A DNA stretch of 48,563 nt from contig JAPUDS010000026.1 in the NCBI GenBank assembly GCA_027492975.1, positions 1 through 48,563 of the forward strand, in the 5' to 3' direction. Below the pieces are notes generated by a model that was given only the letters and a program-made list of their open reading frames with translations, had not been told where the DNA came from and ran no database searches. Within the stretch, counting starts at the first letter, position 1. Each line of letters begins with the position of its first letter. A program made the translations under genes and the position numbers. This stretch comes from Candidatus Saccharimonadota bacterium. Its GTDB lineage: Bacteria; Patescibacteriota; Saccharimonadia; Saccharimonadales; Saccharimonadaceae. Below, in pieces: positions 1 through 22,115 of this stretch.

Positions 1-100
1 TTCTCACCCCTCTTATGGTTACTCATTCCAGCATTCTCACTTCCTAACGCTCCACAATTCTTTCCAAAACTGCTTCACTGCAGATAGGAACGCTCCTCTA

Positions 101-245
101 CCACGCATGCGCCTCACAAGTGCGAGGCGCACAGCAGAAAGATATAAGTAGAAAGATATAAGGATAATCGCAAAAACAATTTCCTTACTACTTGCCACTT
201 ACTACTTACTACTGCATCCTCACGCTAGTGAGACGCACACATCCA
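101..245 (-). other. Intervening-sequence-like insertion in 23S helix 45
   Basis: An insertion of about 120-140 nt sits at the tip of helix 45 (E. coli about 1164-1185), between the conserved blocks aacgctcctctacca and tcttcggtagtatac. Its ends are complementary: gcgcctcac (110-118) can pair with gtgagacgc (228-236), with one G-U pair in the RNA. Each end can alternatively fold into its own hairpin. The interior is low complexity, with a 13-bp tandem repeat agaaagatataag at 136-148 and 150-162 and several copies of ttactact between about 184 and 213. Helix 45 is a documented site of RNase III-excised intervening sequences in other bacteria; excision here is inferred, not seen. Confidence 0.8.
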
Positions 246-752
246 TGTCTTCGGTAGTATACTTAAGCCCCGTTACATTTTCCACGCAAGATCTCTTGAC
301 TAGTGAGCTGTTACGCACTCTTTAAATGAATGGCTGCTTCTAAGCCAACATCCTAGCTGTTTAAGAAATCTCACCTTGTTTCCCACTGAGTATACATTTA
401 GGGACCTTAGACGATGGTCTGGGCTGTTTCCCTTTCGAGCGCCGAGCTTAGCCCCGACGTTCTAACTGCCATGATTCCACAAACGGTATTCGTAGTTTGT
501 TAAGGGTGGGTAGGATTGCTCCCCCCAGTCCTTTACAGAGCTCTACCCCCGTTTGCTACCACATGACGCTAGCCCTAAAGCTATTTCGAGGAGAACCAGC
601 TATCTCCGAGTTCGATTGGCATTTCACCGCTAATCACAAGTCATCCAAGCCATTTGAAACTGACCCTGGTTCGGTCCTTCACTGCATGTTACTGCAGCTT
701 CAACCTGCTCATGATTAGGTCACCCGGTTTCGGGTCTACTCCTGTCAACTTC

Positions 753-914
753 AGGCTGCTCCACGCTGGACAAAATGCATCTGTGAGCACAGATAACCTA
801 TTTATGGCTTTGTGAAAATTGTGAAATGTACACGGAAGTACATTAAACAATTTTCACTTTGCCATAATTGGTTCTATGCGTTCACAGAGTATTTTGCTCA
901 GTGTGGAACAGCCT
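753..914 (-). other. Long hairpin insertion in 23S domain II
   Basis: About 160 nt are inserted between the conserved blocks ggtttcgggtctactcctg and tacgccctattcaggctcg (roughly E. coli 620-650). The element is closed by aggctg (753-758) with cagcct (909-914). It contains a nearly continuous inner hairpin: tatggc/gccata, tgtgaaaattgt/acaattttcac and aatgtac/gtacatt around an acggaa loop (about 812-875). It is A+T-rich relative to the rRNA. It has no ORF and no intron-core features that I recognise. It is either an expansion segment or a second excised intervening sequence. Confidence 0.8.
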
Positions 915-1280
915 ACGCCCTATTCAGGCTCGCTTTCACTGTGGCTCCGTCATTTGACTTAACCTTGCTGACAAAAGTAACTCGCTGGATCGTTCTACAA
1001 AAAGCACGCCGTCACCGGACAAGCCGGCTCCGACTCCTTGTAGGCACTGAGTTTCAGGATCTATTTCACTCCCCTCCCGGGGTTCTTTTCACCTTTCCAT
1101 CACTGTACTTGTTCACTATCGATCGTATATTATGTTTAGCCTTGGCAGGTGGTCCTGCCGGATTCAACCAGGATTTCTCGTGTCCCGGCCTACTCGAGAA
1201 AACAAATATAAGGTCAACGTCGCTTTCGTGTACGCGGTTATCACGCTGTTTCACGGAGCTTTCCAACTCCTTCCACTAGC

Positions 1281-1440
1281 AACGCCGATTTCTTACCTTA
1301 CTGAGAGAATGATAGTTCCTCATCGCAAATCAGATACCTGAAACGAATTTCAGTTCTCTGACTTGGTCATTTGTAAACTCACAACACCTCATAAGTATTC
1401 GCCTATCAGCTTATCTCTACTTGCGTAGAGAAACTTTATA
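1281..1440 (-). other. Expansion in 23S domain I
   Basis: About 150 extra nucleotides lie between the blocks complementary to ctagtggaag (near 1271) and cagccc (near 1447), where E. coli has only about 20-30 nt (near E. coli 270-290). Two perfect stable hairpins are visible: tctctac-ttgc-gtagaga (about 1413-1430; a GCAA tetraloop in the RNA) and ctgaaa-cgaa-tttcag (about 1338-1353; a UUCG tetraloop in the RNA). An outer pairing joins aacacctcataag and cttataaggtt. This looks like a structured expansion segment. Gram-positive bacteria also have a longer helix here, but not one this long. Confidence 0.65.
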
Positions 1441-1720
1441 AGGTTTGGGCTGTTCCCGTTTCGCTCGCCACTACTCCGAGAATCGTTATTTACTTTCTTT
1501 TCCTCGCCCTACTAAGATGTTTCAGTTCAGGCGGTTCCCTTTCAACTATCCTATGTATTCAGATAGAGATGCACATGACATGACTCATGGCGGGTTTCCC
1601 CATTCGGAGATCTCCGGATAATAGCTTGTTGACAGCTACCCGAAGCTTATCGCAGTCTTCCACGTCCTTCATCGGTAATATACGTCTAGGCATCCACTGT
1701 AGTGCCCTTGAGTACCTTTT

Positions 1721-2180
1721 TATGCATTGGTTTTGACTAGCAATTGGTTCGCACCAGTTGCTATTTGTTAACAACAAGTTTCCCTGTTGCTATGCCGTCA
1801 ATTCCTTTGTCTTATCATCATAAAATTTGAACAAATTGTTAAGTTGCTGTGTTCTCCCTTGAGATCACACGCTTGCTCCGGTTTTCGGCGCATTTCCGCG
1901 TGAGCTCAAGCTCAACTAGTGTATCAAGGAGTGTAACAGATTGTAAAGACTAAAGTCGTTGTTATTTTTCCGACACTATCACCTCTGTTACGTAAATTCT
2001 TAGGGGAATAAAATAACCCCTGTCGATCGTTGTTCAATCGCTAGAGGTTTCGTAGAAGAAACATTGCTTACCAACAGAAGATTATACGCTGTCGTAAGAT
2101 ATTTTGCAAGGGTTTTAACGGAATTTTTTGGTAAAAACAAAAATACTAGACTTACGATATACAAAACATCAAATTGCAAC
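1721..2180. other. Internal transcribed spacer between tRNA-Ile and 23S
   Basis: This is a 460-nt spacer of the rRNA operon. It contains several short inverted repeats (for example tagcaattgg/ccagttgcta near 1737-1762 and aggggaataaaataacccct near 2002-2021) that probably belong to the RNase III processing stems. I see no tRNA or protein-coding gene here. Confidence 0.6.
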
Positions 2181-14925: not shown

Positions 14926-15366
14926 CTACTCCTCTTTCGGTAATGAAATCACCTTACCGTACCGCTTTTTAAGGTAGTCGGCCTGAAGCTTACCCACCGC
15001 CACATCCTGGGCATGAGGGTCGTTACGCGTCTCAGCAACAACTTGCTTCGCCTTCTCCACCCATTCTCTCTCGATCAAATCATCATCCGATGCAACAGCG
15101 GGACTCACATCATCCTGTTGTACGGGATCGGAACTTGTAGTCTGAGCTGGACCAACCGTCGGCAAAGGAGGTGGTGTCACTGGTTGCACCATCACGGGGT
15201 CACCTTTCGGCCCATCCGTTATAGCCTCCCGGGTCTCCTTCCCCTGTTCAAGCGGCGCAACAGCTTCCGGAGTTGGCACTGTAAACATCTCACCACTCCG
15301 AACCGCGGACTGCCCCGAAGGAGCAGCCTCTGGGCTAAATTGTGGCTTGGGTAGCTGAGGTTCCAT
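14926..15366 (-). CDS. Hypothetical Pro-rich protein, partner of the VirD4-like ATPase
   Basis: 146 residues, with no family I can name. About 95 N-terminal residues are Pro/Gln/Val-rich and probably unstructured. The C-terminal ~50 residues are predicted helical (EREWVEKAKQVVAETRN, then VGKLQADYLKKRYGKVI) and look like the conserved part. There is no signal peptide or TM segment. A TATAAT box (15374-15379) lies exactly 7 nt before ATG 15366, so the mRNA is probably leaderless and this promoter probably serves the ATPase gene as well. Confidence 0.7.
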   Translation of the reverse strand: MEPQLPKPQFSPEAAPSGQSAVRSGEMFTVPTPEAVAPLEQGKETREAITDGPKGDPVMVQPVTPPPLPTVGPAQTTSSDPVQQDDVSPAVASDDDLIEREWVEKAKQVVAETRNDPHAQDVAVGKLQADYLKKRYGKVISLPKEE

Positions 15367-15409: not shown

Positions 15410-15808
15410 TTACCGTCGTTTGACGATGTAGAAAGTAACGATCGCAATAAATATAACAACAAGAGCAACATCAGCAACTCGAAGCTGTGAATACGCGTGC
15501 ATAGCGAGAAACGTCACTGGTGCAAAAGCAATCACACTTGCAATGTAGTAAGCCTTCCGTATACCCATGCGCTGCGGCGTTGACACCTTTGAATCTTTGC
15601 GGAGTTCTACTAATTTTCGCATCCAATACAAACCAAATCTTAGGAGAATAAACACAACGGTCAAGCACCCAAGATACAGCAGGATAAAAACACCCAGAAC
15701 CCCTCCTGGACCGATCGTTGCAGGATCAGTAAATTGAAATATCAAATACAACAAACCCGCTATGGCAAACGGAGAAACGAAAAGCAAGATTCTTAGACTA
15801 CGCTTCAT
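15410..15808 (-). CDS. Small multi-pass membrane protein
   Basis: 132 residues with four hydrophobic segments: ILLFVSPFAIAGLLYLIF, VLGVFILLYLGCLTVVFILL, IASVIAFAPVTFLAMHA and VALVVIFIAIVTFYIV. A basic loop (MRKLVELRKDSKVSTPQRMG) separates TM2 and TM3. The C-terminus ends VKRR. Family and function are not recognised. I prefer ATG 15808 over the ATG at 15817, because a GATAAT -10 box lies only 2 nt upstream of the latter. It ends 43 nt before the next leaderless promoter, so it is probably a separate unit. Confidence 0.7.
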   Translation of the reverse strand: MKRSLRILLFVSPFAIAGLLYLIFQFTDPATIGPGGVLGVFILLYLGCLTVVFILLRFGLYWMRKLVELRKDSKVSTPQRMGIRKAYYIASVIAFAPVTFLAMHAYSQLRVADVALVVIFIAIVTFYIVKRR

Positions 15809-15844
15809 ATCTATCATTGATTATCCCATAAGCACCATTGAAAT

Positions 15845-15867
15845 AAAAAGAGCCTGTGAGCAACAGG
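15845..15867 (-). terminator. Terminator of the ~330-nt RNA
   Basis: In the transcript, cctgt-tgctc-acagg is followed by ctcttttta. The stem is short (5 bp) but G+C-rich, and the U-run is good. It ends the unidentified RNA 28 nt before the 5' end of the next gene downstream. Confidence 0.6.
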
Positions 15868-16177
15868 TGTAAACGATGACACACGGCGACAACCGCCGCT
15901 GTAATTGAATATGGGGCGCGTGCCGTGTAAAGTCACCTGCCTGTCGCTCCAGGCGACTGACTGCTTCCTTCTAAAGAAGGGAGCATGGTGTCACTATCGG
16001 TTTTGTGACGCTTAGAGAAGTTGTCACCAAGTTCGATAGTGTTAGGCAACTTACAGTGTAATGAAGATTGTATAGTTGCCAGTTCACTATCGAAGCCGAT
16101 AGGTTAGTCAGATTCTAGATAAGGTGCGAAGCCTTCACGTTACGAAAATTTATTATTTTTGTTTTAGCAAAAGCTTA
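15845..16177 (-). ncRNA. Structured non-coding RNA of unknown family (~330 nt)
   Basis: There is no ORF here on either strand, but the segment is bounded by a strong promoter (TTGCTT-17 nt-TATAAA, 16184-16212) and a terminator hairpin with a T-tract (15845-15867). The predicted transcript is about 330 nt and rich in perfect short helices: ctatcg-gctt-cgatag; ggcaact...agttgcc; ctatcg...cgatag enclosing ggtgac...gtcac; gtcgc-ctgga-gcgac; and acacggc...gccgtgt. The motif actatcg/cgatag recurs, so alternative foldings are possible. It is not tmRNA or RNase P (both are elsewhere in this window), and I could not match the SRP hairpin. It lies between ydcF and a membrane-protein gene. The family is unknown to me. 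Confidence 0.6.
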
Positions 16178-16183
16178 CCCTCT

Positions 16184-16212
16184 TTTATAGCACAAGCATC
16201 ATGATTAAGCAA
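16184..16212 (-). promoter_or_regulatory. Promoter of the ~330-nt RNA
   Basis: On the minus strand, -35 TTGCTT (16207-16212), a 17-nt spacer and -10 TATAAA (16184-16189). The predicted start is near 16177. No coding frame follows, which supports an RNA gene. Confidence 0.7.
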
Positions 16213-16318: not shown

Positions 16319-16984
16319 TTATTGCATTCTGTGTTTGATATATCCAGCAGCTACGAGCCGTTCCCAGGCATCTTGAGCCTCATCCGGAACCGCCTGCTTG
16401 GTTTGTAGACCATGCTCTGGGTATGTAAGAATGCGCTCAAAATCACCGACCATGATATTGATGAGTGTGTCATATGACTGTCGAGAATCCGGATAATTGC
16501 CAAACTCAATGCGCGGTGACGTCACAAAAAACCGAGCCTCTTTGTCCGGCCACTGCGCCTCAAACGTTGCCCGAGCACGGCGCTCCATGTACGGCTTCGT
16601 GACTATTTGTATGGTCGCGGGAACTTCGTTACCATTTCTAACAAGTAGTTCATACGACAATACCGCGTTCTGGCCAGTATTTTGTGCACTGGTTTCAAGC
16701 AACATGTGTCGCGCCCTCCCGCCGGTTTTTACAAAGATATCACGAAAGTGCTCCGCCTCACTTTCATTCCATGTGGTACGGAGCAGATCGTCGGCATGCG
16801 CCGCCCCGCCCGTAAAAAGAACTGTATCATAATCATATTTCCGTGATAGCTCGGCAGCGTATACCGCCACCCGTTCATCGATACTACCAAGCACTAGCAG
16901 CAAGCCGGCAGAAACAACCGGCTCATGCAGCAGCATATAGTCCCATACAATTTTCGCATCCATGGCGACCTGGTCATTCGTCAT
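16319..16984 (-). CDS. ydcF: YdcF-family protein (DUF218)
   Basis: 221 residues from ATG 16984. DUF218 features include the N-terminal strand LLLVLGSIDERVAVYAAELS, LFTGG, ETSAQNTGQNAVLS (a SxxTxENA-like motif), QIVTKPYMERRARATF and a C-terminal helical part ending EAQDAWERLVAAGYI. E. coli YdcF binds S-adenosylmethionine in vitro, but the reaction of the family is not firmly known. No signal peptide is seen, so it resembles cytoplasmic YdcF rather than the membrane-anchored SanA branch. The chosen start has TAAAAT (16992-16997) exactly 7 nt upstream, which fits a leaderless mRNA; upstream in-frame starts reach 17062 and cannot be excluded. The sRNA promoter at 17089 diverges from it. Confidence 0.8.
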   Translation of the reverse strand: MTNDQVAMDAKIVWDYMLLHEPVVSAGLLLVLGSIDERVAVYAAELSRKYDYDTVLFTGGAAHADDLLRTTWNESEAEHFRDIFVKTGGRARHMLLETSAQNTGQNAVLSYELLVRNGNEVPATIQIVTKPYMERRARATFEAQWPDKEARFFVTSPRIEFGNYPDSRQSYDTLINIMVGDFERILTYPEHGLQTKQAVPDEAQDAWERLVAAGYIKHRMQ

Positions 16985-17088
16985 AACAAGTATTTTATCA
17001 CTCACTAGCGTGCGCCTCATGAGAGAAACGCTATATATGTAGACTTTTCTCGACTTATCCACAGTTTTTTAATATGTAAAAATTACCA

Positions 17089-17288: not shown

Positions 17289-17680
17289 TGGTGGAGCTGC
17301 CGGGTATCGCACCCGGGTCCGGCTGGTAACCTATCATCCATCTACAAGCATAGTTTGTTTCGAGAATACGTTAGCTGCTGAAGGAACAAACAAAGACACA
17401 GCTTCCGGTCCATGAATAAATGTCGCAACTACACTCCACGGCTATGTAGCTACCAAGTCATATAAATATAACACCTCTTCGCGGTATATGACGTCGGCGG
17501 AAAGATGGCTAACCTAAATTAGGCAGCAAGCGCAAAAGCGGTTTGCTTGGGAGCAAAAAGCTCCGCCACAAAGGCTTTTACTGATGCAAATGGTTTTGCA
17601 GTTAAAATACTGATTACGTCAGTGGTCGACTTGCCAGATGATCTGTTAAAGTCCAGTCGTCGAAAGCGTATTTCAGCCCC
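17289..17680 (-). ncRNA. ssrA: Transfer-messenger RNA (tmRNA)
   Basis: A one-piece tmRNA of 392 nt that rescues stalled ribosomes and tags nascent chains for proteolysis. The 5' end GGGGCTG pairs with 3' CAGCTCC, followed by an encoded ACCA. The T-arm is CCGGG-TGCGATA-CCCGG. The 5' flank contains the typical CGACGACTGG block. The tag frame runs from resume codon GCA (17597-17599) to TAA (17519-17521): 26 residues beginning AKPFAS and ending AFALAA, the usual hydrophobic protease-recognition end. The tag is long compared with the common 8-15 residues. A TATACT -10 box lies about 12 nt upstream of the 5' end (about 17693-17698), divergent from comM. Confidence 0.95.
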
Positions 17681-20387: not shown

Positions 20388-20427
20388 AGTTAAAAAACAC
20401 TCTTCATGCGAAGAGTGTTTTTTAACT
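20388..20427 (+). terminator. Bidirectional terminator after rplT and RNase P RNA
   Basis: A long perfect inverted repeat agttaaaaaacactctt-catgcg-aagagtgttttttaact. It has U-runs on both strands, so it ends the infC operon on the plus strand and the RNase P RNA coming from the minus strand. Confidence 0.92.
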
Positions 20428-20864
20428 GCCAGATTGCCTGTAAGCCGGGTTCTGGCCCGTACCCCATAGGGCACGGGGACGATCATCTATCTAGATCCGT
20501 AATCACTTACGGATTCAAGCGGCTTTCTTGACTCACGAGACGAACAGCCTCTACCCACAAGGGGTAGTTGTGAATCGCCTTGCAGCTGACAGGGTTTACC
20601 CCTCTCCTCTGTCACCAGAGAAGACTGTGGGCTCTTACCCCACTCTTTTCACCCTTACCCCGTAGTAGACTTTTGACAAGCAGCGACGCTGCAGAGTGTT
20701 TGCAAAGCAAACAGTGTCAAAAGCTCACTACGGGGCGGTATATGTTTCTGTGGCACTTTCCCTAGAGTCACCCCTGGTTGCCGTTAGCAACTGTCAATGT
20801 TCTATGCTGCCCGGACTTTCCTCCAGATAGGTTACCTACCGGGCGATCGTCCAGCAATCTGGCA
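20428..20864 (-). ncRNA. rnpB: RNase P RNA, bacterial type A
   Basis: This is the catalytic RNA of RNase P, which matures tRNA 5' ends. P1 is gccagattgc/gcaatctggc at the two ends. On the plus strand the complements of the universally conserved blocks are visible: gtaagccgggttctg near the 3' end and ctgcccggactttcctcc near the 5' end. P12 is unusually elaborate: a long stem (ccccgtagt/actacgggg, about 20660-20736) carries two small hairpins (gcagcgacgctgc and gtttgcaaagcaaac). A TATAAT box at 20871-20876 lies 6-7 nt upstream of the 5' end. Length is about 436 nt. Confidence 0.95.
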
Positions 20865-21871: not shown

Positions 21872-22115
21872 TTACATATAAATATCCTCCGAAGACCGTC
21901 GAGAGCAGATATCTCCCCGCGTATGCGCAAGGTGGGTCCTCTCATACGCCCAGCCACAATGAGCGGGCGCGAATATTGAGATCCCTTTCACGATTTGTTA
22001 GGAAATCATGAACCCTCGACGGACTTCGAAGGACACTCTTTATTATACCAGTAGCAACGAGAGAATGAAACTAGCTCGCTTGTCTTATTCCGAACAGATC
22101 CCGGCCCAACAAATG

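Follow-up and report, generated by a model that had tools for sequence, protein, structure and literature searches.

A stand-alone structured RNA of a proposed new family, widespread in Saccharimonadales and probably present in other classes of Patescibacteria

What is encoded in the gap of about 500 bp that separates a DUF218 gene (ending at 16319) from a membrane-protein gene (starting at 15817) in a 48,563-nt stretch of the genome of a Candidatus Saccharimonadota bacterium, the whole of which is referred to here as the window? The first-pass annotation of this DNA described a non-coding interval between two same-strand genes, and indeed both neighbours lie on the minus strand and no plausible protein gene is found in the gap on either strand. 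We consider it established, with a probability of about 0.97, that the locus is a genuine conserved non-coding RNA gene, and its product, as judged from the promoter, the covarying helices, the conserved motifs, the 3' hairpin/terminator, the single copy and the retention across the order, is a stand-alone structured RNA of an undescribed Patescibacteria family. Patescibacteria are a large and poorly understood bacterial group with reduced genomes, and the maintenance of an RNA gene so widely in such genomes makes an important and perhaps even essential function a strong possibility; the RNA likely represents a core RNA machine, overlooked so far, of these ultrasmall bacteria. Few large structured non-coding RNAs of bacteria are conserved throughout a major lineage, and among them only OLE RNA is, to our knowledge, tied to a membrane protein.

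As to the transcribed strand, the interval folds at -119.3 kcal/mol when read on the minus strand (z -9.3, with 0 of 100 shuffles equal), which bears out the dense helices perceived at first pass. The plus-strand reading was rejected, its fold being weaker (z -7.3) and the conserved G-U pairs turning into C-A mismatches, and the near-invariance of the G-U pair of the 3' hairpin (31 of 36 sequences) fixes the strand of the RNA as minus. The predicted transcript starts near 16176, at the AAGCUUUU hairpin, and dense structure continues down to approximately 15852 (Table 1). The promoter was missed by a simple scan because its -35 element matches at only three of six positions; the extended -10 box is nevertheless seen, and TTGAC-N17-TGCTANNNT occupies the same place in relatives, the pattern TTGA[CT]-N14-20-TGNTANNN[TA] being found in 67 of 86 loci versus 2.1 expected from shuffles, a count in which, as in the -10 box count given below, near-duplicate loci from the same genome slightly overstate independence. 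The terminator that had also been claimed is recognised as the 3' hairpin with the U-run at 15850-15841, so in the window genome this hairpin would terminate transcription, while some lineages possess no U-run after it.

Table 1. Positions of the RNA gene, its parts and its neighbours in the window
Feature	Position	Strand	Basis
Non-coding RNA gene, ~332 nt	15845..16176	minus	Fold z -9.3, no Rfam match, family-wide covariation; 5' end placed from the promoter
Promoter: -35 TTGCTT (16212-16207), 17-nt spacer, -10 TATAAA (16189-16184), extended TGC (16192-16190)	16184..16212	minus	Sequence; same position in relatives
5' hairpin, loop with conserved A-rich CAAAAA tract	16129..16176	minus	Stem covaries in relatives
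Middle domain with four CTATCG/CGATAG arms; nested helices 1-4 and 2-3, inner helix GGCAAC:GUUGCC	15994..16102	minus	
Core hairpin AUGCUC...AAGC, then near-invariant GCGGUCAGUC motif (GCAGUCAGUC in the window)	15955..15991	minus	Alignments A2, A4, A10
Long 3' hairpin: conserved inner helix CGCC:GGCG, near-invariant G-U pair, two-base bulge	15852..15954	minus	R1/R2 matches, covariation
AU-rich apical loop part of the 3' hairpin	15923-15885	minus	
U-run after the 3' hairpin	15841..15850	minus	Sequence
Membrane-protein gene, 135 aa, next downstream of the RNA	15410..15817	minus	Own -10 GATAAT at 15825-15820
DUF218 (YdcF-like) gene, upstream neighbour	16319..17062	minus	Adjacency not kept throughout the RNA family

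The structure is supported by covariation, assessed with shuffle and slide controls in plain MAFFT alignments (A4 and A10) and in alignments fitted to models (A5 and A3), the latter leaning, by their nature, towards the models. In A10, representing the long form (24 sequences), two-sided changes are found in 31 of 46 pairs over five helices, with a score of 0.356 versus 0.209 in shuffled alignments, and the P4 helix alone presents such changes in 10 of its 11 pairs. The respective values are 13 of 18 pairs and 0.461 versus 0.229 for A4 (17 sequences), 17 of 28 pairs and 0.380 versus 0.195 for A3 (32 sequences), and 14 of 18 pairs and 0.537 versus 0.205 for A5 (36 sequences), which takes in six weakly matching sequences of other classes; half of these were later discarded. 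The covariation score was equalled by none of 500 shuffles, and covariation is seen in three sequence sets. Strong covariation over Saccharibacteria combined with the lack of an Rfam match, the outcome that had been proposed as the mark of a new RNA, is thus what was found. The stem of the 5' hairpin, for example, is represented in relatives by GCUUUU:AAAAGC, GGUUUU:AAAACC and GUAAGU:ACUUAC. In alignment A2, which shows the core hairpin motif, a single base is missing from one seed. Other elements are invariant or nearly so: the CAAAAACAAAA loop of the 5' hairpin, the tracts ACCUUAACAAUU and CGCACCUU, GAGCGGUCAGU, and the core of the 3' hairpin, with its CGCC:GGCG inner helix, G-U pair, two-base bulge and AU-rich apical loop. 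A long-range helix, CUGACCG:CGGUCAG, fits 83.7% of cells versus 11-36% when slid; the invariance of its 3' side makes a covariation test impossible there, and the window itself carries a paired change in this helix (CUGACU:AGUCAG).

The middle domain is where the first-pass annotation saw recurring actatcg/cgatag arms, at least three of them, and suspected switchable pairing. Four such arms are present, at 15994, 16034, 16087 and 16097, but their nested pairing (1-4, 2-3) is more stable than the alternative (1-2, 3-4) by 4.8 kcal/mol, and the four-arm repeat is not found in most relatives, including one of the same genus, which speaks against a switch. This domain is probably the counterpart of the covarying P3 helix in other family members. 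At three loci, from two genera, a shared GGUAAUUUCUAGCCAUAAAUUAC...GGAAUUACC-like element is found in place of the middle domain.

How widely is the RNA distributed? BLAST recovers syntenic relatives within the genus and the family. Two covariance models, R1 for the 3' domain and R2 for the reduced version of that domain, match, respectively, 107 and 173 of the same 295 Saccharimonadales genomes, and the union, counted from both result tables, amounts to 213 genomes, nearly always with one copy. This number is probably a lower bound, since all four of the model-negative genomes that were read directly carry the RNA, with its GCGGUCA core, upstream of the membrane-protein gene. A pattern scan over 84,980 named species returned 95 stretches, all titled Saccharibacteria, Saccharimonas, Saccharimonadia/-dales, Patescibacteria, or unnamed bacterium MAGs. 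The length, 332 nt in the window, varies between about 200 and 500 nt in relatives, with reduced forms of approximately 200 nt. The suggestion of a lineage-specific RNA was therefore correct as to the lineage and too narrow as to its reach, the RNA being conserved in the whole order and probably outside the class as well; confinement to the window genome, considered earlier as the outcome that would speak against the RNA, is contradicted by the 213 genomes. The covariance models give annotators a means to find the gene. Three genomes possess two R2 matches each, from possible duplication or assembly redundancy. Three weak R2 matches located inside coding sequence were discarded.

The gene directly downstream of the RNA in essentially all of the Saccharimonadia loci read is that of the membrane protein. 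Across families of Saccharimonadales the RNA is followed in turn by the genes of the membrane protein, p146 and a VirB4/TraG-like ATPase, while tmRNA and ComM lie on its other side; the 146-aa protein (14926-15366, minus strand), for which there is no Pfam family, is kept between the membrane protein and the ATPase across the order. In G190, from a different order of the class, the arrangement is TrpS, RNA, membrane protein, PheS, so that only the pair of RNA and membrane protein is retained. Four helices are predicted in the protein (mean pLDDT 87, pTM 0.59), and the loop between TM2 and TM3 has a net charge of +2 to +9, with a mean of +5. Neither CNNM/DUF21 nor any other convincing family was recognised by Pfam and NCBIfam over 21 members, and a PDB fold search produced no match. 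One member of the protein alignment has a GTG start, written as M. Profile matches adjoining disA, and a number of further ones beyond the class, seem unrelated and are not counted as evidence.

Other classes of Patescibacteria encode similar RNAs as well, in no fewer than nine families, as detected via weak R2 matches and in regions upstream of membrane-protein homologues. These RNAs possess an A-rich AAAACAAAAACAAA tract, in many cases GCACCUU, and end in a hairpin with an inner helix and an AU-rich loop. A model of the terminal hairpin (R3), five of whose ten seeds are from other classes, matched 39 of 371 genomes, and the non-seed matches in families f62, f72, f79, f81, f101, f147 and f170 bear the A-rich tract, most of them also the 5' stem domain. 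Members of f62 and f72 share with G190 the order RNA, membrane protein, PheS; given hairpin and synteny, their RNAs are likely homologous to the Saccharimonadia RNA, although one f62 member has no typical hairpin, and for the remaining families homology is probable. In f79 the order is recA, RNA, dksA, lspA, and in f59 and f167 the RNA likewise adjoins unrelated genes (lgt, rny). As, in addition, the membrane-protein profile finds no match in the f79 genomes, the pairing of RNA and membrane protein is not obligatory.

What could such an RNA do? We tentatively propose, by analogy, that it may serve as the scaffold of a membrane ribonucleoprotein, in which proteins would be held by the A-rich 5' loop, the GCGGUCAGUC strand and the 3' hairpin with its bulged G-U and AU-loop features, and the neighbouring four-TM protein, with its basic cytoplasmic loop, would anchor the particle at the membrane, the two acting in the manner of OLE RNA and OapA, and this in bacteria for which neither SRP RNA nor Ffh is detected. 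In favour of this proposal is the adjacency kept in G190, f62 and f72 despite the change of other neighbours. Against it, conservation of neighbours is high anyway in such small genomes (tmRNA and ComM being examples), a basic TM2-TM3 loop is also expected under the positive-inside rule, and the fold search with the protein gave no match. Because the pairing is not universal outside the class, we give the membrane ribonucleoprotein somewhat less than an even chance, regard a trans-acting RNA unrelated to the neighbour as no less plausible, and consider a cis-acting leader unlikely. The model for the proposal, OLE RNA of Bacillota, is a structured stand-alone non-coding RNA whose gene is clustered with housekeeping genes, whose commonest immediate downstream neighbour is a membrane protein of four TM helices bearing a basic patch on its cytoplasmic side, and which is brought to the membrane by that protein (PMC12265935). 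The new RNA is alike in being stand-alone and structured, in its clustering with housekeeping genes and in having a four-TM protein gene with a basic loop immediately downstream. It differs in length (330-450 nt, or about 200 nt in reduced forms, versus about 600 nt for OLE), in the lack of an OLE match in Rfam, in phylum, and in its neighbour, which, in contrast to the CNNM-like OapA, shows no CNNM-type family, as set apart by Pfam/NCBIfam profiles and PDB fold only. Our best guess is that the new RNA, though likened to OLE/OapA, is not an OLE member, and that it may localise to the membrane by analogy. A broader version seems to us quite improbable: Patescibacteria would have in the RNA and the four-TM protein a membrane-targeting or membrane-organising ribonucleoprotein of their own, already present in the ancestor of much of the phylum and secondarily reduced or elaborated by lineage. 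Genetic tools exist for cultivated Saccharibacteria (PMC10633639), and the role of the RNA is thus directly testable.

An RNA acting in trans with no tie to the membrane protein would be a cytosolic housekeeping or regulatory molecule, for example protein-sequestering or ribosome-associated, and the neighbour would be kept by compactness and a shared terminator/promoter region. The unrelated gene contexts in other classes and the generally high synteny agree with this, and the unpaired conserved A-rich and ACCUUAACAAUU/CGCACCUU tracts could contact protein or mRNA. The adjacency retained in G190, f62 and f72 is harder to reconcile with it, and so are two further observations. No Hfq, which would be the obvious partner of (AAN)n tracts, turned up in 14 genomes, on which ground an Hfq-type small RNA was rejected. 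Complementarity to rRNA is short, the best run being 10 nt to 16S and no run of at least 10 nt existing to the partial 23S, and an antisense role towards rRNA was rejected as well.

That the RNA might instead be a riboswitch or attenuator leading the membrane-protein operon is suggested by its location, at every Saccharimonadia locus read, immediately ahead of that operon on the same strand, and by the U-rich tract in which the 3' hairpin often ends. However, a -10 box lies 5-20 nt ahead of the ATG of the downstream gene in 54 of 80 loci versus 18.3 expected, a pattern read from sequence only that suggests a leaderless membrane-protein mRNA, and about a dozen loci possess a separate intrinsic terminator between the RNA and the next gene; with its own -10 box and these extra terminators, the downstream gene most likely does not have the RNA as its leader. 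Moreover, the RNA adjoins unrelated genes in f59, f79 and f167, and no structure of the RNA is more conserved than the candidate terminator itself.

That the RNA belongs, in diverged form, to a known family (SRP RNA, 6S, tmRNA, RNase P or OLE) appears highly improbable, even if its size and its single copy are what one would expect of a housekeeping RNA. The Rfam search proposed at first pass has been run: Rfam 15 returned only chance-level matches at the RNA locus up to E 10, including no match to RF00013 (6S) or RF00169 (SRP), and none to the RNA, OLE included, at E <= 5 in 23 related loci, so the RNA is still unassigned. It had been argued that it is neither tmRNA nor RNase P RNA, and both have strong Rfam matches elsewhere in the window (17289-17680 and 20425-20862, respectively), the tmRNA gene being about 1.1 kb upstream of the RNA gene; they are comparable to it in size, with no sequence similarity. 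A 6S identity had been left open. While 6S is likewise a housekeeping-type regulatory RNA of the same genomes, a separate candidate exists at 21880-22037 (minus strand), adjoining a tRNA and lying about 1 kb upstream of RNase P; it scores 38.2 bits, below the Rfam gathering score, has a counterpart near RNase P in another genome, and is, by these sequence criteria, probably 6S RNA. For SRP RNA, a membrane-related housekeeping RNA expected in such genomes, it speaks in favour that none is otherwise found in the lineage (0 of 192 Patescibacteria genomes). The GNRA-capped helix 8 signature, however, is not recognised in the new RNA, and Ffh was found over the cut-off in none of 33 Patescibacteria genomes (13 + 20) versus 14 of 14 controls, so an SRP RNA would lack its partner. 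In its own right, the SRP system (RNA and Ffh) appears to be missing from the sampled Patescibacteria lineages, with controls that worked. No report of the RNA was found in the literature, while a large, automatically compiled catalogue of microbiome RNAs (PMC8040213) may contain fragments.

Finally, there is a negligible chance that we are dealing with a chance fold, a coding region or a mobile element: dyad-rich, AT-rich DNA can fold, but the z of -9.3 together with the covariation argues against chance, the longest ATG-initiated ORF of the final ~350 nt is in most cases short (median 25.5 aa), and the RNA is usually single copy, with no match in plasmids or phages.

Two other RNA genes of the window are longer than their models. 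The RNase P RNA (minus strand) comprises 438 nt versus a model of 367 positions, with lineage-specific insertions, and the 23S rRNA match at 1-1721 (minus strand) takes 1721 bases to cover 1327 model positions, which suggests that about 400 nt are inserted inside the 23S gene.
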